Positions 32,243-42,108 of a stretch of 64,000 nt of DNA are shown one piece after another. The notes under the pieces were generated by a model. It saw only the letters and a program-made list of their open reading frames with translations, searched no databases and was not told where the DNA came from. Within the stretch, counting starts at the first letter, position 1. The number at the start of each line of letters is the position of its first letter. A program made the position numbers and the translations under genes. The stretch spans positions 1-64,000 of the forward strand of contig PHAA01000019.1 of the NCBI GenBank assembly GCA_002840245.1, read 5' to 3'. This stretch comes from Firmicutes bacterium HGW-Firmicutes-15. GTDB lineage: Bacteria > Bacillota > Syntrophomonadia > Syntrophomonadales > Syntrophomonadaceae.

Positions 32243-33676
32243 CTAAAAATCTAAAAAATCCGAGGAATCCATCGTTTGAAACGATGAATGGATATAATTA
32301 TCGATTGATTTTAGCCGATCTGGGCTTATGTTCTGCAAAAACTGTATATATTCACGCTGCCACTGCATTTCCATCATCTCTTCACCAACGCTTTGCAATG
32401 AAAAAGCAGAATCGATTCTTAGTTCCTCGATAAATACGATTCTAGCTAGTATAGATAATTCCATATCTCCTAAAGAATCAAATAAATATTGAAACTCGTC
32501 TCCAAATAAGCAGTCAGCTTCCAAAATATCAATAAAATCCCCTAAGGAATGAATTGTTGAGTTTATTATTGCGGTTTTGTCAGCAGCTTTAGCACAATCT
32601 ATTATTTGATCAACCACCGCGCGGAAACTTTCATCATCCATGGTGTTTCCCTCATCAAACATTACATCCAATGGGGAGTGTTCATTACTATCAAGAATAA
32701 TAACATTCTCCAGGCAGTCATGCTTGAGTGCATTTATGAACCTGGGCATCAATACGTTTTTAAAATTTCTAATGTAATCCCTTAGCTCGGCCTGATCTAC
32801 ACCTAGGTCCCTGAGCAATGCTTCAGTTGCTTCGCGTATAAGAGAGGAGCAAAGGCCCGGATCTAAGTCTTTAAATTTATCCCGCAGCAGTTCATATTGA
32901 AGTTTGGATATATCCAATTCGATGGCTTTATTGCTGGCTAATATGGAAAAAAGGGAATTGGTGAGCAAGACTTCAAATACATTTATTAAGGCTTCTCTGG
33001 TATCGATACGATATACATGGCCATAGTTAGCTAAGAGCTTGGCAACATCCTCCTTGGGGAACAGACTGCAAAACTGAGTCTCTATTGCTAAGCTTTCCAG
33101 GTATTGTTTGATATAGAAAATCCCTTGAACATGCATATCGTCAAAAAGCAGAGGATAGTCCATGCTGGCCATGGTATCCTGAGCGTGAAATACTTCATCA
33201 TAGTTATTAAAAAAGTCAGGCAGCGCTTCATCCAGGGTTGAATGGTAGGCTTGGATGGGAATATCCAGTTTTTTATCCATTATGTCTTGGTATAGGTTTC
33301 GGGTATAAGCCACACATGAAGTAACCAAGGCCAGGCCTTTTTTATATATTTCCTTTAGGTTTTCTGCTTTTAATAAGGCTATGGCATCCTCCGGATTGGG
33401 AAAACTGCTAATACAGACATCAATAGAATAAAGGATCGACAATAAAAGACTCTGCGCAGTCTCAACCTTTACCGAAGTGCTTTCGCCTTTGGTGTACCTT
33501 ATTATTAGGTCGGCTAATAAAGACATAAGCTGGGTTTGAATACAATCCATGGCCGTTTGATTAATAAGCCCTAACCGGTGTCCCTCTTCAATGAGCGCCA
33601 GAGTATAGTGATTAGGATCTAGACGTTCCTTTCCAAGGGCGGACTGTTTCTCAATAGCCGTATTTTTCATTATCAT
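32243..33676 (-). CDS. DUF6179-type protein, function unknown
   Basis: 477 residues, largely helical and acidic, with no signal peptide or membrane segment. I associate it with DUF6179 because that family lies next to DUF6323 in Clostridia; this is from memory, not a search. Two ATG codons two residues apart (33676 and 33670) are both possible behind GAAAGGA. Its start overlaps the end of the DUF6323 gene by 26 bases, so the pair is translationally coupled and probably works together. Confidence 0.6.
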   Translation of the reverse strand: MIMKNTAIEKQSALGKERLDPNHYTLALIEEGHRLGLINQTAMDCIQTQLMSLLADLIIRYTKGESTSVKVETAQSLLLSILYSIDVCISSFPNPEDAIALLKAENLKEIYKKGLALVTSCVAYTRNLYQDIMDKKLDIPIQAYHSTLDEALPDFFNNYDEVFHAQDTMASMDYPLLFDDMHVQGIFYIKQYLESLAIETQFCSLFPKEDVAKLLANYGHVYRIDTREALINVFEVLLTNSLFSILASNKAIELDISKLQYELLRDKFKDLDPGLCSSLIREATEALLRDLGVDQAELRDYIRNFKNVLMPRFINALKHDCLENVIILDSNEHSPLDVMFDEGNTMDDESFRAVVDQIIDCAKAADKTAIINSTIHSLGDFIDILEADCLFGDEFQYLFDSLGDMELSILARIVFIEELRIDSAFSLQSVGEEMMEMQWQREYIQFLQNISPDRLKSIDNYIHSSFQTMDSSDFLDF

Positions 33677-34142
33677 GTTTCCTTTCCAGAGAATAATCTG
33701 CTTCCTGCCTGGCGCGCCTGATACTATCGGCCAATATTGCCAGTTCCCTGTCCCTTAGAAGCTCTAGCGATCCCCGGCAGGAAGTGTTATAGAATTCCTG
33801 CATTATGGAAATTAATTCATCATCGCCTATGCTTTCTTCTGTTTCGTTTTTCATATAATAAAATATTTCTACCAGCTCATTAATTGTTAATGCATAGTCT
33901 TCTCGGTTAATATAGGATGAGCTGTAAAAAGCCGAAATAATTTGTTTTACCACTTCTATCCCTAGTTCAACTCGGCCATGGTTTCGAACAGCCTGGTTTC
34001 TTGATTCGATAAGCTCATGTGCTTCTGCGGCGGTTAATGCCAATCCATATTTTTGGGACTCCTTATTGGTACTGAGTACCTCAACGATGGTAAGCGGTTT
34101 AATCAATACCCCGGTTGAATGATAAATATCGATTAGATTCAT
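33651..34142 (-). CDS. DUF6323-type protein, function unknown
   Basis: 163 residues, predicted soluble and helical (SRNQAVRNHGRVELGIEVVK, then EYALTINELVEIFYYMKNE-like segment, then LRDRELAILADSIRRARQE). ATG 34142 is about 9 bases after AAAGGAGGG; the open frame extends 14 codons further without a ribosome binding site. Upstream DNA (34185-34260) is very AT-rich and may hold the promoter. First gene of a two-gene operon with the DUF6179 gene. Confidence 0.6.
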   Translation of the reverse strand: MNLIDIYHSTGVLIKPLTIVEVLSTNKESQKYGLALTAAEAHELIESRNQAVRNHGRVELGIEVVKQIISAFYSSSYINREDYALTINELVEIFYYMKNETEESIGDDELISIMQEFYNTSCRGSLELLRDRELAILADSIRRARQEADYSLERKHDNEKYGY

Positions 34143-34325
34143 CGCATTAGCCCTCCTTTTGTAGTCAAGCTTTTTTAAAAACAAAAAATGAAATTAGATA
34201 TTGACAAAATAATAAATTTATGATATATTAATAAATTACACAACTAGTCCATGTATTATATATTGATAATGTATAGTTGTCAACGTGCTTTTTGCTGGGC
34301 ATTTTAAATTCTTATATAGAGCATG

Positions 34326-34366
34326 AAAAAACGCCACTAATGATTCCTATCTTTAGTGGCGTTTTT
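34326..34366 (-). terminator. Strong terminator of the ATP-grasp/DUF350 operon
   Basis: AAAAACGCCACTAA (34327-34340) pairs perfectly with TTAGTGGCGTTTTT (34353-34366), a 14-bp stem with A/T tracts on both flanks, so it works in either direction. It closes the seven-gene minus-strand operon that ends at 34414. Confidence 0.85.
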
Positions 34367-34413
34367 AATATCATAATATCCTGTGAAAGCTAATCTCTCA
34401 TGTATATCATTTT

Positions 34414-35046
34414 TTAGGGTTTAACAATTCGCACCAGGTGGTTAAAATCGCCGATACCTGCAAACTCCAATTCGAATGAATCGATGGGAGCGGTTTTCGG
34501 AGTGTAGAGTTGATAGTACTCACTGCTTACTTCCGCCATGACTTTTTTTCCTCCGGCATCGAACAAGAAAAAGTATCGGCCATCAAGGGATTTAACCCGC
34601 TGTTTTAAGCTAGCGGTAGTAGTGAAGGTCTTAGGTGGGTTTTCTTTTTGGGCATCAGCCAGGCTGGGATAAAGGGATAAAACTTCCCAGTTTGCAGCAC
34701 CATATTTAAGACTTAGTTGACGTTTATCCAGGCTCTTCTTTACGTTATATGTATCCACTGCTCCAAGTAGGACGCCTACTGTTTGACCGGGGCTGGCTTG
34801 CTGATAAAATTCCTGGGTGGTGTCCACCCACAGTGGTAAAATTGCTATACCCAGTACGTTTACCTGTAAATAATAAATGTTGTTAGAAAGCTCCTTGGTT
34901 ACGATTGTGGCTTCCATAATTTTTACCTCTGTGGTGCTGTAAACGTCTTTTGCAGATGGAAAGATCACTATGGTACTTATCAAAATAACTGCTAGTACAA
35001 TAAGAACTCCAATTAGCATTTTCTTTTTCCCAGGCTGTAAACTCAT
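34414..35046 (-). CDS. Membrane-anchored protein of the ATP-grasp operon, function unknown
   Basis: 210 residues: a short basic N-terminus, one membrane helix (about 10-31; MLIGVLIVLAVILISTIVIF), then an extracellular domain rich in beta-type sequence. I see no catalytic motif. The ATG lies two bases beyond the ATP-grasp stop codon, so it is coupled to that gene. As last gene of the operon it may hold the product at the surface or act as a partner of DUF350; that is speculation. Confidence 0.6.
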   Translation of the reverse strand: MSLQPGKKKMLIGVLIVLAVILISTIVIFPSAKDVYSTTEVKIMEATIVTKELSNNIYYLQVNVLGIAILPLWVDTTQEFYQQASPGQTVGVLLGAVDTYNVKKSLDKRQLSLKYGAANWEVLSLYPSLADAQKENPPKTFTTTASLKQRVKSLDGRYFFLFDAGGKKVMAEVSSEYYQLYTPKTAPIDSFELEFAGIGDFNHLVRIVKP

Positions 35047-35048
35047 TA

Positions 35049-37517
35049 CTATGACACCTCCACAAAAGTAGGCGCAACAACCGCGTAACGGTCAGTTATC
35101 CGCGCCCCAAGTCTAGTATATAAACCTCCAAACTGATCTCCTGCGAGGAAGGCTCCCAGAATCGGGTAAGCTACCTGAAATTGACTTGAGTAGGTATTGC
35201 GAATAGTAATATCCACCGGGCCAATATCAACCAGTTCCTGATAGACCAAATCCTGCTCAGCTAAACCGGAAATCTGATCAGATGTAATTTGATTGGAAAA
35301 AACCACTCCCTGCCCCTCTCTTTCCCAATAGGGCTTTATGACGCAAGGTTTCTCAGGCCAATTTAAATAAGTGGGAACCACGTAACGTTGGAGCAAATCA
35401 GCCTCTTCGGGAAGATAGAAACCCTCCTGCAAAAGCTGCCAGACAATGGCTAAAAAGGCTTTGCTCTGCGGAATCAATGCCGAGGACGGGTTTATCATAT
35501 AAAGTTCCTTCAGGCCTGGAATCAAACGCTGGTGTTGCCGGTTCTCGGCCATCCAGTCCAGCGGGTAATGGCGGTATAGTGCATCCAAATGCTGTCCGTA
35601 GAGATTTATATGCCCATCCTTTAGCGACAGTCCAGAAATATCCCCCAGAATCAATTCATCAACCTGTGAACGAAGGATTTCTCCGAATAACATAAGCTGA
35701 AACCAGTCTTCTTCGGCCGAAGGGCATCCCACCAAGCCAAGGGTTTTTACTGATTTTCGGGGAGACCTGCTGAGCAGGTGTCTATATTGATTAGCCAAAA
35801 GATCAAGAAGCCCCCGGTTGGGGTCTTCGGAATTCGGACATAAGGGATGAATCAAGCTATTAAGGGCAACGGATTCTAGTCCTGCAGGGGTATCAGTATT
35901 CAATTCCAATAAACGTAGGCTTCCATGACGGTCGATGGCCCAATCAAAACGTCCCAGCAGGCTTAGCCACTCTCCTTCATCCTGCGCCACTAAGGATTGT
36001 AAACACTCTGGAATACCCAGCAGGGGAGTAAATAGAACCAGGTTGTTCTGCAAAAAAATTCGCGTCTTTACAAATACCCGTCCTAGTCCTTCGGTAGCGG
36101 CTATCACTTCATGGTATAGGGTACGCGAAATTCGGACCGGTTCCAGGATAAATGATTCCCAGTCCCCGGTGTAACTAGCCGTATAGTTGAACTGGAAAGC
36201 TGCTTGTTCGCTTATTTTATTCCATAGGCAGTGGTGTTCCGCCTCGCTTCGGGATGATATTTGCACATTTAAGGAAGGAATGGCTGTATGCCGTACCCCC
36301 ACGGGACTGAACCAGGCCATGTCATCCTGACTGAGGTAATCGGAGGACCAACGGGCACAGATCCCGGTAAACTCGCCCAGGGTAAAATATATTCCAAAAT
36401 TTCCGAACCCAATCGTATCTTCATATCGATGACCATTAAAGCTCTTTACCACTCTCCGTCTTATGGGAATGAACTCCTGCATTACGTGAGGAACGCCGCC
36501 TTGGCAGACCTCTTTCAGAGCAATTTGCCATTCATCCTTATTCATCATAGCCCCAATATGGACCCCTTCACTATAGCGGCCGAAAACGGGCTTCACTACC
36601 CAGCGTTCCTTTTTCGATTCAAGTTCTGCCATATCAACGGGGGTAAACATCCGCGTATACGGAATGGTTTCCCGTATCGATGTGCGTTCGGCATCAGTGA
36701 GAAGAGAAGATTTGTTATCGTATAAGTGCCACAGGTAAGCAAACAGGCTCTTGGCCTGAGGGACGATGGCCCTGGGGTCATTTACCATTAAGACCTTACG
36801 GCGAGCTATAAGCTCCAACAACTTGGGATAGTCATGCACTTCATTGCTGAATTCGGTTGGATATTGGCGAAGAATGATGTCCAGGGCTTGCCCGAAGGCA
36901 GTCACCCCATCGTTGGTAACGTTAAGGTTTTGGCCCCCCAGCAGCAGGGTGGAATAGCCCAGCGGCTTAATCAGGTCAAGATACAAAAAAGCCAGATGCG
37001 TTTCTTCGTAATGGTTAGGATCAACCAATATACCTACCGTTGGCAGGTGGTTTCCAGCTCCATATTCTGCCCATAGCCGGGCTAATCCCTCTCTAAACTT
37101 CTGCGCAAAGTGCTGGTTTGGATTTCCCTGTGGATTAATAAAATTAGAAACCATTATTTCCCTCTGGGCGCAGGGTTTGTCGTAATTAAACTCGGAGAAG
37201 AATATACCGCCTTCTGCTCGTTCAAAAGCATCATAACGGGCCCAGAAAAAGGGGGCCAAGTCTATCGGTAAGTGAAGAATTTGTTCGCGGAAAGGAAAAT
37301 CAGGCAATAAGAACGAAGAGTGGTCCAGAGGCTGGTGTAATATTTCCGGTACTAAACGATCTACCAGTCCAAATAGAACTCTGGACGCAGCGATCATTTT
37401 CTGAAAGACATCGGGTTCCAAGTATACCGGATGCTTAGAAAAGGCCTCCAGTTCCCGAGGGGAGCTGATCATGTAGTATTCGAAGTTCAGGTGCCGGGTT
37501 AATTCCTCTGGATTCAT
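35049..37517 (-). CDS. Tandem double glutathionylspermidine-synthase-like ATP-grasp ligase
   Basis: 822 residues made of two homologous modules. In module 1 (about 15-425) the metal motif is EFNYDKP (109-115), the ATP lysine K309 in VVKPVFGRYSEG; in module 2 (about 440-822) ELNTDTP (538-544) and K728 in VIKPYWEREGQG. Pre-ATP-grasp parts also align (YLEPDVFQKMIAASR with ILEPVRISRTLYHEVIAAT). Such enzymes form amide bonds between a carboxylate and an amine; E. coli YgiC and YjfC are single-module relatives of unresolved substrate. No CHAP amidase domain is present. Follows the secreted protein gene by two bases. Confidence 0.85.
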   Translation of the reverse strand: MNPEELTRHLNFEYYMISSPRELEAFSKHPVYLEPDVFQKMIAASRVLFGLVDRLVPEILHQPLDHSSFLLPDFPFREQILHLPIDLAPFFWARYDAFERAEGGIFFSEFNYDKPCAQREIMVSNFINPQGNPNQHFAQKFREGLARLWAEYGAGNHLPTVGILVDPNHYEETHLAFLYLDLIKPLGYSTLLLGGQNLNVTNDGVTAFGQALDIILRQYPTEFSNEVHDYPKLLELIARRKVLMVNDPRAIVPQAKSLFAYLWHLYDNKSSLLTDAERTSIRETIPYTRMFTPVDMAELESKKERWVVKPVFGRYSEGVHIGAMMNKDEWQIALKEVCQGGVPHVMQEFIPIRRRVVKSFNGHRYEDTIGFGNFGIYFTLGEFTGICARWSSDYLSQDDMAWFSPVGVRHTAIPSLNVQISSRSEAEHHCLWNKISEQAAFQFNYTASYTGDWESFILEPVRISRTLYHEVIAATEGLGRVFVKTRIFLQNNLVLFTPLLGIPECLQSLVAQDEGEWLSLLGRFDWAIDRHGSLRLLELNTDTPAGLESVALNSLIHPLCPNSEDPNRGLLDLLANQYRHLLSRSPRKSVKTLGLVGCPSAEEDWFQLMLFGEILRSQVDELILGDISGLSLKDGHINLYGQHLDALYRHYPLDWMAENRQHQRLIPGLKELYMINPSSALIPQSKAFLAIVWQLLQEGFYLPEEADLLQRYVVPTYLNWPEKPCVIKPYWEREGQGVVFSNQITSDQISGLAEQDLVYQELVDIGPVDITIRNTYSSQFQVAYPILGAFLAGDQFGGLYTRLGARITDRYAVVAPTFVEVS

Positions 37518-37519
37518 AT

Positions 37520-37906
37520 CTAACTCCCAACATGTCCTCGTGAAATATTATAGCCTCCCACGCGTTTAACACTGGTCGGGGTCGACCAGGTAGCGCGCCC
37601 AAAGGAGTTGCCAATATAACTGAAGGGCCGGTAATAATAACCGTAACCGGGGCCATAAGAGCTATAGCTCTGTTCTGCATCAGTTTCCCATTCGCCCTCA
37701 TCCTGTCCCGCTTCTTTTTCTTGTACCAGTACCATGTCCTTTTTAGTATTCTGGGAGTCTGCAGCTGCAGTAGTTGCACACAATCCAAAGCCAGAAAAGG
37801 CCAGGCTAATGGCTAAGCTGATGGCCAGGGCTTTATTTTCGGGCAGTAGTTTTTTAATTAGAGTGGTTGATTTCTTTTGGCTGGTCGTATTTGTATTTTT
37901 AGCCAT
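37520..37906 (-). CDS. Small secreted Gly/Tyr-rich protein, candidate substrate
   Basis: 128 residues. A basic N-terminus and hydrophobic stretch (ALAISLAISLAFSGFGL) ending ATTAAA-D make a Sec signal peptide. The mature part is acidic first (QEKEAGQDEGEWETDAEQ) then Tyr/Gly-rich (SSYGPGYGYYYRPFSYIG) and ends VKRVGGYNISRGHVGS. ATG 37906 is 7 bases after AAGGGG. The ATP-grasp gene starts two bases after its stop. The E. coli YgiB/YjfM (DUF1190) proteins hold the same position next to YgiC/YjfC, so this may be the modified target; no direct evidence. Confidence 0.65.
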   Translation of the reverse strand: MAKNTNTTSQKKSTTLIKKLLPENKALAISLAISLAFSGFGLCATTAAADSQNTKKDMVLVQEKEAGQDEGEWETDAEQSYSSYGPGYGYYYRPFSYIGNSFGRATWSTPTSVKRVGGYNISRGHVGS

Positions 37907-37960
37907 ATTCATTCCCCTTGTTATTAAGTATATAGATAACAGCGCTCAAGCTAAATGGGC

Positions 37961-38602
37961 TTAAAGTAGTTCGGATTCTTCCACCTGGATCATGTTTTCT
38001 CGTAAAAATTGCAGGTAGGCCGCAACATCCTCCTTGGCTTCACCTTTACGATACAGCGTTACCCGGGCATATCCCAAAGCCTTTAACATATCCAGGCTGG
38101 GCAGGTCATCCGCGGTTAACTCATACTGGTTGTTGAACCTGCGCCGTAATAAGCGCGGGCTGACCTTAGCTAAATAACGTTGATTATCCATAATAAGCAC
38201 ATAACCCTGCGGTTCCACCGGGTTTAACAGAAGGCCGTAAGCTATTAGGGCGTTGACATAACGGTCTCCTCCCACTAATCCGTGGGTATGCAAAGGACTC
38301 ACGTAGGTCAGAATCGGTTTTAGCCGTAAACGGTTCTGTAATAAAAAACCTAGACGCATTCCCTCAACAGCAGGGATATCAAATAGAACTAGATGATCCC
38401 GCTCAAGCTGTTCCAATTGAGGCAGGAGATACTTATATAAGGTGCTGGCATTGACTGACACTCGTCGCAGAGCAAAATCGCGATAGTGCTTTAAGGAAAC
38501 AAAATTGGTTTTGCGAACAAAACAGGCAAAGGGACCGGCTCCCTGCATCCAACGTGAATAAACATCAGACAGATCAATCTGCAACAAACTAGTTGCTGTC
38601 AT
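37961..38602 (-). CDS. Unknown 213-residue protein of the ATP-grasp operon
   Basis: 213 residues, soluble, no signal peptide. The centre reads like alternating strands and helices (HLVLFDIPAVEGMRLGFLLQ, LKPILTYVSPLHTHGLVGG, GYVLIMDNQRYLAKVS), possibly a Rossmann-like fold, with a basic patch PRLLRRRFNNQY. I do not recognise the family. The ATG lies 4 bases after the stop of the 58-residue gene with only a weak ribosome binding site, so it likely depends on coupling. Confidence 0.6.
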   Translation of the reverse strand: MTATSLLQIDLSDVYSRWMQGAGPFACFVRKTNFVSLKHYRDFALRRVSVNASTLYKYLLPQLEQLERDHLVLFDIPAVEGMRLGFLLQNRLRLKPILTYVSPLHTHGLVGGDRYVNALIAYGLLLNPVEPQGYVLIMDNQRYLAKVSPRLLRRRFNNQYELTADDLPSLDMLKALGYARVTLYRKGEAKEDVAAYLQFLRENMIQVEESELL

Positions 38603-38606
38603 GCAG

Positions 38607-38783
38607 TTAGCTACTGCTTTCCACCAGGCAGAATACCTGATTTATATTCATAAACTGTCGGTTTCCATTTTGATCCTGTATGGTGGCGATCCCGCTTTCT
38701 ACTTTCAACAGACTTCCATCCAAAACGTAGTCTGTTGACTGTTCGTTCCAGTCATCAATGGTTCTATATATATAGATCTTCAT
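38607..38783 (-). CDS. 58-residue protein of the ATP-grasp operon
   Basis: A short gene, easily missed: begins MKIYIYRTIDDWNEQSTDYV and ends FMNINQVFCLVESSS. The ribosome binding site is excellent (TAAGGAGGT, 9 bases upstream) and it fits exactly between the DUF350 gene and the 213-residue gene with 15- and 4-base gaps, so I regard it as real. It has one cysteine and no membrane segment; possibly a small beta-sheet protein. Function unknown. Confidence 0.7.
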   Translation of the reverse strand: MKIYIYRTIDDWNEQSTDYVLDGSLLKVESGIATIQDQNGNRQFMNINQVFCLVESSS

Positions 38784-38798
38784 GTTGTTGTTACCTCC

Positions 38799-39227
38799 TT
38801 AGCTGATGCTGGCTCCGACGATGTAGGAAATGGCCATGAAAACGGAAAAGACCATAATCCCTACGGAACGATTGTCTTTGCTAAGCTCTTCATCTACCCT
38901 AAACTGCGGGGTGAGCTTATCAAATAGCCACCAGCCCACAATCATGCCGAGAATGCCAAGTCCGCCCCAGGTCAGTACACCAATGGTGGTGTTATTGGAT
39001 AGAATGGCAAAACGCATGACGTTAGATAAACTTAGAATCAGGCCACCCGTGGCTAATCCCACTGCTACATTACCCCGCTTGATTTCATCCAAGTCGTTGT
39101 ATTGGGTAAGAATAGAAAAAATTAAAAGTCCTGCTCCCACTACGAGAATGCCGATTAGATAGCTTATACCAGTGGCTAAATAGGCATTCATTCCTGAAAA
39201 GTTGGTTAACATACCGAAGGTGCTCAT
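38799..39227 (-). CDS. DUF350 membrane protein
   Basis: 142 residues, four membrane helices (AYLATGISYLIGILVVGAG; GNVAVGLATGGLILSLSN; IGVLTWGGLGILGMIVGWW; VGIMVFSVFMAISYIVGA). The conserved GNVAVGLATGG segment marks DUF350, the family of E. coli YjfL, repeatedly found beside glutathionylspermidine-synthase-like ATP-grasp genes. ATG 39227 follows GGGAG; the open frame runs 43 codons further and would add another hydrophobic stretch, but no ribosome binding site precedes its TTG. Confidence 0.82.
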   Translation of the reverse strand: MSTFGMLTNFSGMNAYLATGISYLIGILVVGAGLLIFSILTQYNDLDEIKRGNVAVGLATGGLILSLSNVMRFAILSNNTTIGVLTWGGLGILGMIVGWWLFDKLTPQFRVDEELSKDNRSVGIMVFSVFMAISYIVGASIS

Positions 39228-39374
39228 CTCAACAACTCCCGTTAGCAAAATTACTATGAATATTATAACTCTTTGGGCGTTAACTAAAAAGTGCTTATAT
39301 TTGGAGGCAATAGTCTGTAGGTCCTTGCCTGCTGTTAACTGCCCAGCAGGGTACAAGCGGATACGTTTTTAGAA

Positions 39375-39596
39375 CTATTCGTTGCCATCTTTCCTATGCT
39401 GAAGTAATGATATTAAGCTATCCAGCCTATTCAGTACTTGCTTCCGAAAGTCGTTTTTTTGCTTAAGGTACCGAAATATAAGCACCACAATAACAATGAT
39501 TATTGCTAGATTTACCAACGACCAAGATAAAACATAGAAATTCCCAAACACAGGGGGATTCCCCATAGGAGCTTGGATAGGGATAGAAGTATTCAT
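39375..39596 (-). CDS. 73-residue single-helix membrane peptide, first gene of the operon
   Basis: A short proline-containing N-terminus (IPIQAPMGNPPVFGNFYVLS), one strong membrane helix (LVNLAIIIVIVVLIFRYL) and a charged, leucine-spaced tail (VLNRLDSLISLLQHRKDGNE) that could form a coiled coil in the cytoplasm. ATG 39596 is 8 bases after AGGAGG; a GTG three codons earlier lies inside that site. A TATAAT on the minus strand (39646-39651) could be the operon's -10 box, but no clear -35 is seen. Confidence 0.65.
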   Translation of the reverse strand: MNTSIPIQAPMGNPPVFGNFYVLSWSLVNLAIIIVIVVLIFRYLKQKNDFRKQVLNRLDSLISLLQHRKDGNE

Positions 39597-39832: not shown

Positions 39833-41116
39833 CTAACTTTGAGGATTTTCCATCGTGCCTAAGAATAAAGGTAGATTTGTATTGGTATCAACAATTGCAT
39901 ATACAAATGGTCGATTGAAAACAATATTTTGAATTGTCCCGTATATACCTGTCGCTTTCACAACAACATCTGTTACCGCGCTTGCTTCGGTTCCTAACTC
40001 ATCAAATTGCAAAAAGGTTTTGTGCTTAACGGATGAGATTATTAATTTTTCGTCGGAGTTCCCCATTTTTGAGAAATCCGCTCTAATTTCATCAAAAGCA
40101 ATCCCCAAACCCATGTTTTTAAGGGTATCCTTTAATTCAAAATTACCGGAAGTTTTGAATTTGGGAATTGTAACCGCAATATGAGTATTTCTTTTTTGGC
40201 TGATCAATTCCGGAATTGTTCTTTCATCTAATATTTTTATATATTCATCCAACTTAATTCCTTCGTTAGGTAATATAGCAAGAAATGCAAAACGTCCATC
40301 ATCATATGGAAGCAGAACAGCAGATGCGCTTGGGCCGCTTATATAATCTAATTGGTCAGTAAGATGCATAAACATGGTGGTTTGAGTCTTGCTGTTGCTA
40401 AGATAAAAGTTTCCTTGGCTGGCCTTCTGCTCCATGTCAAACGGCGTTTTCCATTTGGCGTTGAAGTAAATGGTGTTAATAAGGTGCATCACCTCATCCG
40501 GATTTATTTCATCAATAATTTTATCAATTTTACCATTTGTGTTATTCCTTACCCAATCGTTGATTACATCCGCAGAAGCTTTATCGTTAAAATTTAAATT
40601 CCTGGCTCCGGCGCCAAAGTAATCAGCGTTGTTTTGTAGAAATTCGGCTTTAGGGGTAAAATCATTACGGAACCATATGGAGTTGGTAATATTTAGGGCA
40701 GTTCTTCCCCTCTCTTCAGTAAGCTCATCAGAATAACCTTTATACGCTTTATTAAGTTCGTCCAGGGTCAGGCCGTATTTTCCCAGACATGTTATAAAAG
40801 AATTTAGGGTTTCACCGCTGGTCCCATTGGCGGTCATTCCTAAGGCCAGAAATACCGATGCAGGCGATATAAGCGAATTTTCATCCTTTTTAATTGAATT
40901 CTTAAATAATTCAATTGAGAAATGTTGCGTGGAACTAATAAATCTATCTGTTATAGCATTGGAAACATTAACGATATTGGGCTTGATTCCTGCCATTAAA
41001 TCCTGCGCTATGGCTGTTTCATTTTTATTAAATGACAGAGAGGAATAAAACAGGGTTAAGGCCAATATAACCACGATTGCAGTTGTTATAGTTAAATATT
41101 TTCTCTTGTTTCCCAC
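39833..41116 (-). CDS. Serpin-family protease inhibitor, secreted or membrane-anchored
   Basis: 427 residues: one N-terminal hydrophobic segment (LTITTAIVVILALTLFYSSL), then a full serpin fold (about 65-427): SLISPASVFLALGMTANGTSG, LINTIYFNAKWKTPF, the hinge ELGTEASAVTD (373-383) and the C-terminal FNRPFVYAIVD, FLGTMENP. A small-residue hinge means it is probably inhibitory; counting from the hinge puts the bait residue near T389, but loop length is uncertain. Serpins trap serine or cysteine proteases; the target is unknown. Rare but known in anaerobic bacteria. GTG start. Confidence 0.92.
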   Translation of the reverse strand: MGNKRKYLTITTAIVVILALTLFYSSLSFNKNETAIAQDLMAGIKPNIVNVSNAITDRFISSTQHFSIELFKNSIKKDENSLISPASVFLALGMTANGTSGETLNSFITCLGKYGLTLDELNKAYKGYSDELTEERGRTALNITNSIWFRNDFTPKAEFLQNNADYFGAGARNLNFNDKASADVINDWVRNNTNGKIDKIIDEINPDEVMHLINTIYFNAKWKTPFDMEQKASQGNFYLSNSKTQTTMFMHLTDQLDYISGPSASAVLLPYDDGRFAFLAILPNEGIKLDEYIKILDERTIPELISQKRNTHIAVTIPKFKTSGNFELKDTLKNMGLGIAFDEIRADFSKMGNSDEKLIISSVKHKTFLQFDELGTEASAVTDVVVKATGIYGTIQNIVFNRPFVYAIVDTNTNLPLFLGTMENPQS

Positions 41117-41499
41117 ATCATCACATCCTTTGCCAATAATACGGTAGAAATCTTAGAAGATTTCATTTTCATTAAAATACCCGAAATTTATTTTTAGATT
41201 TAAGGAACTGACCAAGTCGTCTTTAAAAATGGGAAAAGGTGATACCGCATATCTTCTCCTAAAAAAGCAAGTGGGGGATTCTAATGATTGGCCCCTTGTT
41301 TAGTAATGCTGTTAAAGAAAGTTCTGTATATGGAATATAATACCTTTAACACGAACTGCATTTCAAGAATTAATTACTGCACAGATTGTAAAACTTCGCA
41401 GCAAGCAAGAGATAATTTCTTGAAAGACCTATCGTGTCATGATATTATAATTATACATATTAATGCATATTAATGCATTGGCAGATTGGGGGGAAGGAC
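41117..41499. other. Intergenic region before the transglutaminase-like gene, no gene seen
   Basis: This 383-base stretch separates the divergent serpin and transglutaminase-like genes. It is AT-rich and contains only short frames without ribosome binding sites. It should hold promoters for both directions; a TATAAT-like box is near 41337 on the plus strand, but no paired -35 is convincing. Confidence 0.4.
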
Positions 41500-42108
41500 A
41501 TGAGATTGGTTTGTGAATCTAATGATCTTGAGGATTATTTACTTGAGTTGGATGTGGTTGATTACAGCCACCCGTTAATTATTAAAAAGGTAAATGAACT
41601 ATTCGCTTGTTCATTTGATGAAATAGAAACAGCAAAAATTGCGTTTGAATTTGTACGGGATAGTATTTCCCATTCATGCGATATACAAAGCTCTCGGGTT
41701 ACATGCAAAGCATCAGAAGTGCTTTATTTTAAAGAAGGTATCTGCTATGCAAAGTCGAACTTGCTGGCTGCTATTTTGAGAAGCAAGTGTATCCCTACAG
41801 GTTTTTGTTATCAACTGCTTACCAAGGGTGATACACCTGATTCAGGTTATTGCATACATGCGTTAAATGCTGTCTATCTTAAGTCGCTAGAACGTTGGAT
41901 AAGATTGGATTGCCGTGGAAATAAAACTGGCGTCGATGCTCAGTTTTCTATTTATGAAGAGAAATTAGCCTTTCCTATAAGAAAGCATTATGATGAAAAA
42001 GATTACCCAATTATTTATAAGAATCCAAACCCTATAACAATATCTACATTAACGCAGAATTATGATTGTATTAAGATGTGCGAGAATTGTTTGCCTACGC
42101 AATTGTGA
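41500..42108 (+). CDS. Transglutaminase-like protein
   Basis: 202 residues with a papain-like transglutaminase core: catalytic Cys in KEGICYAKSNLLAAILR (near 86), His in YCIHALNAVYL (near 126) and Asp in WIRLDCRGN (near 140). In bacteria such domains act as proteases or peptide-modifying enzymes more often than cross-linkers. No signal peptide, so cytoplasmic. ATG 41500 follows GGGGGAAGG. Stands alone; substrate unknown. Confidence 0.85.
   Translation: MRLVCESNDLEDYLLELDVVDYSHPLIIKKVNELFACSFDEIETAKIAFEFVRDSISHSCDIQSSRVTCKASEVLYFKEGICYAKSNLLAAILRSKCIPTGFCYQLLTKGDTPDSGYCIHALNAVYLKSLERWIRLDCRGNKTGVDAQFSIYEEKLAFPIRKHYDEKDYPIIYKNPNPITISTLTQNYDCIKMCENCLPTQL

Follow-up and report, generated by a model that had tools for sequence, protein, structure and literature searches.

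Introduction

YgiC and YjfC of Escherichia coli, which carry the RefSeq label peptide--spermidine ligases, are described in two accounts (PMC10948618, PMC12568646, citing Pederick et al. 2023) as peptide ligases and not glutathionylspermidine (Gsp) synthetases. Each adjoins a gene for an exported protein or lipoprotein with a Gly/Ser-rich end (YgiB or YjfM, DUF1190), and the YjfC operon includes a DUF350 partner, YjfL. Operons of an ATP-grasp enzyme related to glutathionylspermidine synthetase (GspS), a DUF350 protein and a lipoprotein have also been described already (PMC11237479). Here we report a gene cassette whose best reading is a variant of these YgiC/YjfC-type systems, found in a stretch of 64,000 nucleotides (nt) from Firmicutes bacterium HGW-Firmicutes-15 (GCA_002840245.1, contig PHAA01000019.1, positions 1–64,000 forward); this whole stretch is called the window below. 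At the heart of the cassette is an 822-residue ligase with two ATP-grasp modules, encoded directly after a small exported protein that we predict to be its substrate.

The ligase gene (35049–37517, minus strand; N-half approximately residues 1–428, C-half approximately 429–822) belongs to a compact minus-strand operon of six genes at 34414–39227, which encode DUF350, C58, D213, E, the double ATP-grasp ligase and G210. Its core comprises C58 (58 residues, 38607–38783), D213 (213 residues, 37961–38602), the exported Gly/Ser/Tyr-rich protein E (37520–37912) and the ligase. The cassette resembles the E. coli YgiC/YjfC systems in the family and fold of its ligase (C-half), in the adjoining exported protein with a Gly/Ser-rich end and in its DUF350 partner; unlike them, it has a two-module ligase, an E protein that is not recognised as DUF1190, a DUF350 gene that is optional, and two proteins, D213 and C58, without counterpart there. 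With the polyamine operons linked to the phage shock protein (PSP) system (ATP-grasp, DUF350, DUF1190; PMC11237479) it shares a GspS-related ATP-grasp, DUF350 and a lipoprotein, but it has no PspA/CesT pair, occurs in Clostridia, and is built on a four-gene core not described there. Of the window genes tested, none gave a Pfam match to PspA, DUF2170 or DUF2491, genes of YjfIJKLMC or PSP-type operons, and the conserved cassette has no other recurrent gene. One locus, from Clostridium rhizosphaerae, has a flotillin-like band-7 gene (PF01145, E 1.9e-25; L060:4071–5543, plus strand) 19 nt upstream of the cassette, recalling the band-7 variants in PMC11237479.

Two further comparisons can be drawn. 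E. coli glutathionylspermidine synthetase/amidase and trypanothione synthetase share catalytic residues, an acidic amine-site pair and fold with the cassette ligase, which differs from them in having no amidase domain, in its tandem synthetase modules and in its predicted substrate, a protein and not glutathione. The ligase of single-module ATP-grasp/DUF350 clusters of other Bacillota (L063–L075) is akin to the C-half; most of these clusters have DUF350, and many encode alongside the ligase an exported protein whose C-terminus is Gly/Ser-rich. Unlike the cassette they have one module and, in place of D213 and C58, other small accessory proteins. The literature covered gave us no account of the double-module form, C58, D213 or the tail rule set out below, although the most relevant specialist papers lie outside it.

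Results

Judged from its sequence, the 822-residue protein is truly double, as an initial annotation of this DNA had proposed, and its two halves are homologous to one another (hhalign probability 99.8%, E 2.6e-30). Pfam family PF03738 (GSP_synth) matches residues 432–818 in the C-half (E-value 8.2e-45; 154 bits, family cut-off 29.3), while the N-half gives weak Pfam ATP-grasp matches and lies outside the best PF03738 stretch reported. The closest solved structures of the C-half, by sequence as well as by fold, are YgiC and YjfC (YjfC 7uk6, E 1.7e-19), and a fold search with the ligase also returns GspS and eukaryotic glutathione synthetases. By these matches, the C-half is kin of the peptide-spermidine ligases YgiC and YjfC; together with the DUF350 match given below, they bear out the kinship with YgiC/YjfC and DUF350 suggested earlier.

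We compared the active sites in a joint alignment of 20 N-halves and 20 C-halves with E. coli GspS. Residues R316, D318, E330, N332, K498, K533 and R598 of GspS are kept in 20/20 N-halves and in 20/20 C-halves. The initial annotation had named loss of the nucleotide-binding residues as a result that would speak against its proposal; the nucleotide and metal residues (the Arg/Asp/Glu/Asn metal-phosphate set and the ATP lysines) are intact in both modules. Positions invariant at the 97% level number 43 in the N-half versus 27 in the C-half. Glu391 of GspS is a key residue for spermidine binding, and the acidic amine-site pair to which it belongs (E391/E392) corresponds to E171-E172 in the N-half and E603-D604 in the C-half of the window ligase; the position next to the Glu391 equivalent is acidic throughout the halves examined. 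The same acidic pair is present in YgiC, in YjfC and in each of the 13 YgiC-like single enzymes, and is essentially absent from six relatives that neighbour a glutamate-cysteine ligase gene (five or six of the six are without it).

The two modules appear to differ in ancestry. In maximum-likelihood trees, the N-halves group with ATP-grasps linked to glutamate-cysteine ligase (Shimodaira–Hasegawa-like approximate likelihood ratio test, SH-aLRT, 99 and 98.9) and the C-halves with YgiC-like enzymes; glutamate-cysteine ligase (GCS2) genes were confirmed as neighbours of the N-half's nearest single-module relatives. A simple internal duplication, which would unite both halves in one clade, is disfavoured (approximately unbiased, AU, test, p 0.011), subject to a long-branch caveat. 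The double ligase thus likely arose by the joining of two distinct ATP-grasp lineages and not, as first supposed, by the doubling of one module; because long branches meet in the N-half grouping, we take the fusion as likely, short of proven. As a separate observation, loci L076–L081, from several Bacillota, encode a single ATP-grasp of ~440 residues beside a GCS2 gene, and these pairs may make a glutathione-like thiol by a route of two enzymes that has gone unrecognised.

Homologous loci were collected by scanning an 84,980-species collection with exact peptide patterns required, so that the resulting count is a lower bound. The scan returned at least 32 double ATP-grasp loci, all in Bacillota and, among the named ones, mostly in Clostridia. 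The gene order C58–D213–E–double ATP-grasp is repeated in essentially all of them: D213 is present in 32/32 loci, C58 directly precedes it in 31/32 (the contig of the sole exception is short), and all 32 encode a small exported protein between D213 and the ligase, although the copy in L057 is seemingly frameshifted. Outside the cassette the neighbours vary, with no gene cluster repeated in more than 8 of the 32 loci, and neither D213 nor C58 was found near single-module relatives of the ligase. Because these four genes are conserved together while their neighbours differ, and because D213 and C58 do not accompany single-module relatives, we define the core as C58, D213, E and the double ligase. 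A full-length double ligase match occurs in 3 of 399 sampled Bacillota genomes, host included, and the D213 profile picks out exactly the same three; of the 54 host-family genomes, one has the double ATP-grasp, the host itself. The double enzyme is therefore rare, and the cassette is a real, conserved gene set in Clostridia. The expectation that the unrecognised genes would be conserved beside the ATP-grasp gene holds for D213 and C58 and fails for the 73-residue peptide A73; the further expectation that D213 and C58 would be confined to an ATP-grasp/DUF350 pair was right in that D213 occurs only with the double ligase, and wrong in that DUF350 is dispensable.

E proteins share an architecture: a basic N-terminus and a hydrophobic segment come first, an acidic run often follows, and a low-complexity stretch rich in Gly, Ser and Tyr leads up to a tail. 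In the window, the first ATG gives a protein of 130 residues and the second (37906) one of 128 residues, the latter better spaced from an AGGGG sequence resembling a ribosome-binding site. Most E homologs have a lipobox cysteine and are therefore lipoproteins; window E and its nearest relative are without it and look like ordinary secreted proteins, so the earlier description of E as secreted fits the window protein and not most of its family. E matched no Pfam family even at E ≤ 10, DUF1190 (YgiB/YjfM) included. In Clostridium magnum, the E gene (L057:6597–6992, plus strand) runs out of frame past the lipobox region, which may reflect a frameshift, a sequencing error or a pseudogene.

Conservation of E is concentrated at its end. 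The tail reads GYSGxKGGSSSS-COOH in most members and VGGYNISRGHVGS in the window, where, with the stop codon, it occupies 37520–37561 (minus strand) and is the predicted site of modification. Over the last 13 residues, 12 divergent members have a mean identity of 36% versus 23% in shuffles (maximum 26.5%), and each of the three preceding 13-residue segments is within the shuffled range; kinship alone may raise identity above the shuffles, but does not account for the way the tail stands out from the segments next to it. A pattern derived from the tail matches 34 of 1,706 open reading frames (ORFs) in the collected loci; 29 of these are E proteins, as follows from how the pattern was made, and the remaining five all adjoin single-module ATP-grasp genes of the same (GSP-type) ligase family. 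Nearly all E tails have no Asp or Glu in their last 20 residues, leaving the C-terminal carboxylate alone there, which points to ligation at the C-terminus.

The two remaining core proteins, C58 and D213, matched no Pfam family, in the case of D213 with families hit by at most 3 of its 32 members and all of them weakly. The AlphaFold2 model of D213 is an alpha/beta protein of high confidence (predicted local distance difference test, pLDDT, 95.9; predicted template modelling score, pTM, 0.91) for which no PDB fold match was obtained at E ≤ 0.001. Its invariant residues (Y15, W18, G108, L119, R142, N157–Y160, P168, K190, D192 and Y196) suggest a candidate binding or active site. No profile match relates D213 to C58, to G210 or to either ATP-grasp half. 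By analogy, D213 may escort E or the E tail: E. coli YjfI is a CesT-like protein (PMC10948618), and single-module clusters have other small proteins in a place comparable to that of D213. In five such clusters (L066, L067, L068, L069 and L075), the proteins at this place are of ~150–160 residues and two sequence types, with no Pfam family among those tested. C58 is duplicated in many Clostridium loci, where it is ~127 residues long with two repeats, and has a sub-threshold match to NF041655.

Membrane proteins accompany the core more loosely. The DUF350 protein of the window (YjfL family; 38799–39227, minus strand) matches PF03994 with an E-value of 1.2e-27 and 97 bits against a Pfam cut-off of 26; its ATG start is at 39227, and the open frame runs on further upstream. 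DUF350 is present in 21/32 loci, either as a gene of ~130 residues upstream of the core or as a mostly 69-residue, half-length gene downstream. Since about a third of the cassettes lack it, we rejected it as a core part; it is wholly missing from 5 of 19 cassette genomes at the cut-off used. Seven Clostridium loci without DUF350 have another anchored protein (c7) after the ligase. The membrane-anchored, 210-residue G210 (34414–35046, minus strand), which has no Pfam family, is restricted to window-type cassettes, with homologs after the ligase in 6/32 loci; no meaningful profile match connects it to c7.

The genes from DUF350 downstream are separated by 15, 4, 48, 2 and 2 nt, and a terminator-type hairpin with a T-run closes the operon (34318–34375, minus strand; −22.7 kcal/mol, z −7.0, a stability matched by 0 of 200 shuffles), in agreement with the strong terminator first noted. 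Seven tightly packed genes had originally been counted. All seven ORFs are present on the minus strand, but the first, A73 (39375–39596), a 73-residue peptide with a single transmembrane segment and sub-threshold family matches only, ends 147 nt before the DUF350 start and so is not tightly packed with the operon. It has no homolog in any of the 32 loci and is probably not part of the system. Directly upstream, on the same strand, is a serpin (serine protease inhibitor, PF00079, E 1.2e-95; 39833–41116), which does not recur in loci related to the window cassette, and beyond it a divergent gene for a transglutaminase-core protein (PF01841, E 3.1e-09; 41473–42108, plus strand). Past the terminator, the next operon has a perfect TTGACA-17-TATAAT promoter of sigma-70-type consensus at 34283–34255, behind which lie genes of the functionally unassigned families DUF6323 and DUF6179 (32243–34184, minus strand).

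Discussion

Two complete amide-forming sites with spermidine-binding acidic residues, next to a tailed exported protein, make attachment of a polyamine-like amine to the end of E probable. We therefore favour, with some confidence, a system of the YgiC/YjfC kind that would amidate the C-terminus of E, perhaps twice. The initial annotation, largely right in other respects, had likewise proposed amidation or peptide-tagging of a secreted or envelope protein. At the expense of ATP, the double ATP-grasp would activate the C-terminal carboxylate of E as an acyl phosphate, which it would then couple to an amine, likeliest a polyamine such as spermidine; if both halves are active, two couplings would follow. 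D213 and C58 may recruit or escort E. Amidation presumably precedes export, after which E would reside on or outside the membrane, and DUF350, G210 or the alternative anchored protein could tie the product there.

Several observations weigh against this proposal. Asp610 of GspS, which recognises the opposite end of spermidine (PMC2702004), is kept in none of the groups compared in the joint alignment (N-halves, C-halves and single enzymes), so the exact amine is not fixed. The ligase is cytoplasmic while E is exported. The E tail visibly resembles that of E. coli YjfM (RGHVGS versus RGHWGG), but 245 and 294 of 500 shuffled tails reach equal scores; as the tail hidden Markov model does no better than composition, we claim no homology of the E tail to YjfM/YgiB. 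Host spermidine genes do not discriminate either, being common in Bacillota: 16 of 19 cassette genomes have a spermidine synthase (E < 1e-50) or an above-cut-off carboxy(nor)spermidine decarboxylase, against a Bacillota background of 172/200 for PF01564, an uninformative comparison, and three of the 19 are without a strong form of either enzyme. Above-cut-off nspC is found in 8/19 cassette genomes versus 20/200, an enrichment confounded by kinship.

The division of labour between the halves could take other forms. It is possible, if less than likely, that the additions are sequential, with the N-half adding an amino acid or another carboxyl-bearing amine to the E terminus and the C-half capping it with a polyamine. 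The grouping of the N-halves with ATP-grasps whose GCS2 neighbours are confirmed, and the eukaryotic glutathione synthetases among the fold matches, agree with such a scheme, but long branches leave that grouping uncertain, and the N-half keeps the acidic pair that those relatives largely are without, which points to a cationic amine there too. We think it unlikely that the two sites, both polyamine-ligating, doubly amidate the exported protein, either with two amines per tail or with a polyamine joining two E C-termini, a protein counterpart of trypanothione (bis-glutathionylspermidine), and that D213 is a new family presenting the tail. That the C-half alone is catalytic and the N-half a structural or regulatory pseudo-module is very unlikely: such modules are common in fused enzymes, and the Pfam ATP-grasp matches of the N-half are weak, but seven of seven tested catalytic residues are invariant in it, and it has the larger number of invariant positions.

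The product itself might not be a modified protein. GspS and glutathione synthetases, members of the same fold family, make small molecules, and the ligase could form a Gsp-like metabolite, with E, D213 and the membrane proteins acting as its sensors, carriers or exporters. We consider this quite unlikely, since a tailed exported protein is linked to the ligase in every locus and also in unrelated single-module clusters, conservation of E confined to its last residues better suits a substrate than a receptor, and YgiC/YjfC are reported to be peptide ligases in the accounts cited above. An ATP-grasp beside a small Ser/Gly-rich exported protein also recalls graspetide-like pathways, in which side-chain lactams or lactones would be formed in E and a processed peptide released. 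This is extremely improbable: the ligase is of the GSP_synth type, family searches returned no graspetide family, nearly all E tails are without the acidic residues expected of a precursor core, and the conserved core has neither protease nor transporter. A role in anti-phage defence was also considered and dropped, as no meaningful PADLOC match was found.

C-terminal amidation of E thus remains our preferred account. Which proteins YgiC/YjfC-type ligases naturally act on is apparently not settled, and E is a specific candidate, with a conserved C-terminal tail; similar tailed proteins stand beside single-module ligases in other Bacillota. The four-gene core brings three protein families unrecognised by Pfam; for one of these, D213, the model is confident and matches no known fold. 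Should polyamines prove to be attached to the C-termini of envelope proteins, this would be a protein modification common to Gram-negative and Gram-positive bacteria.

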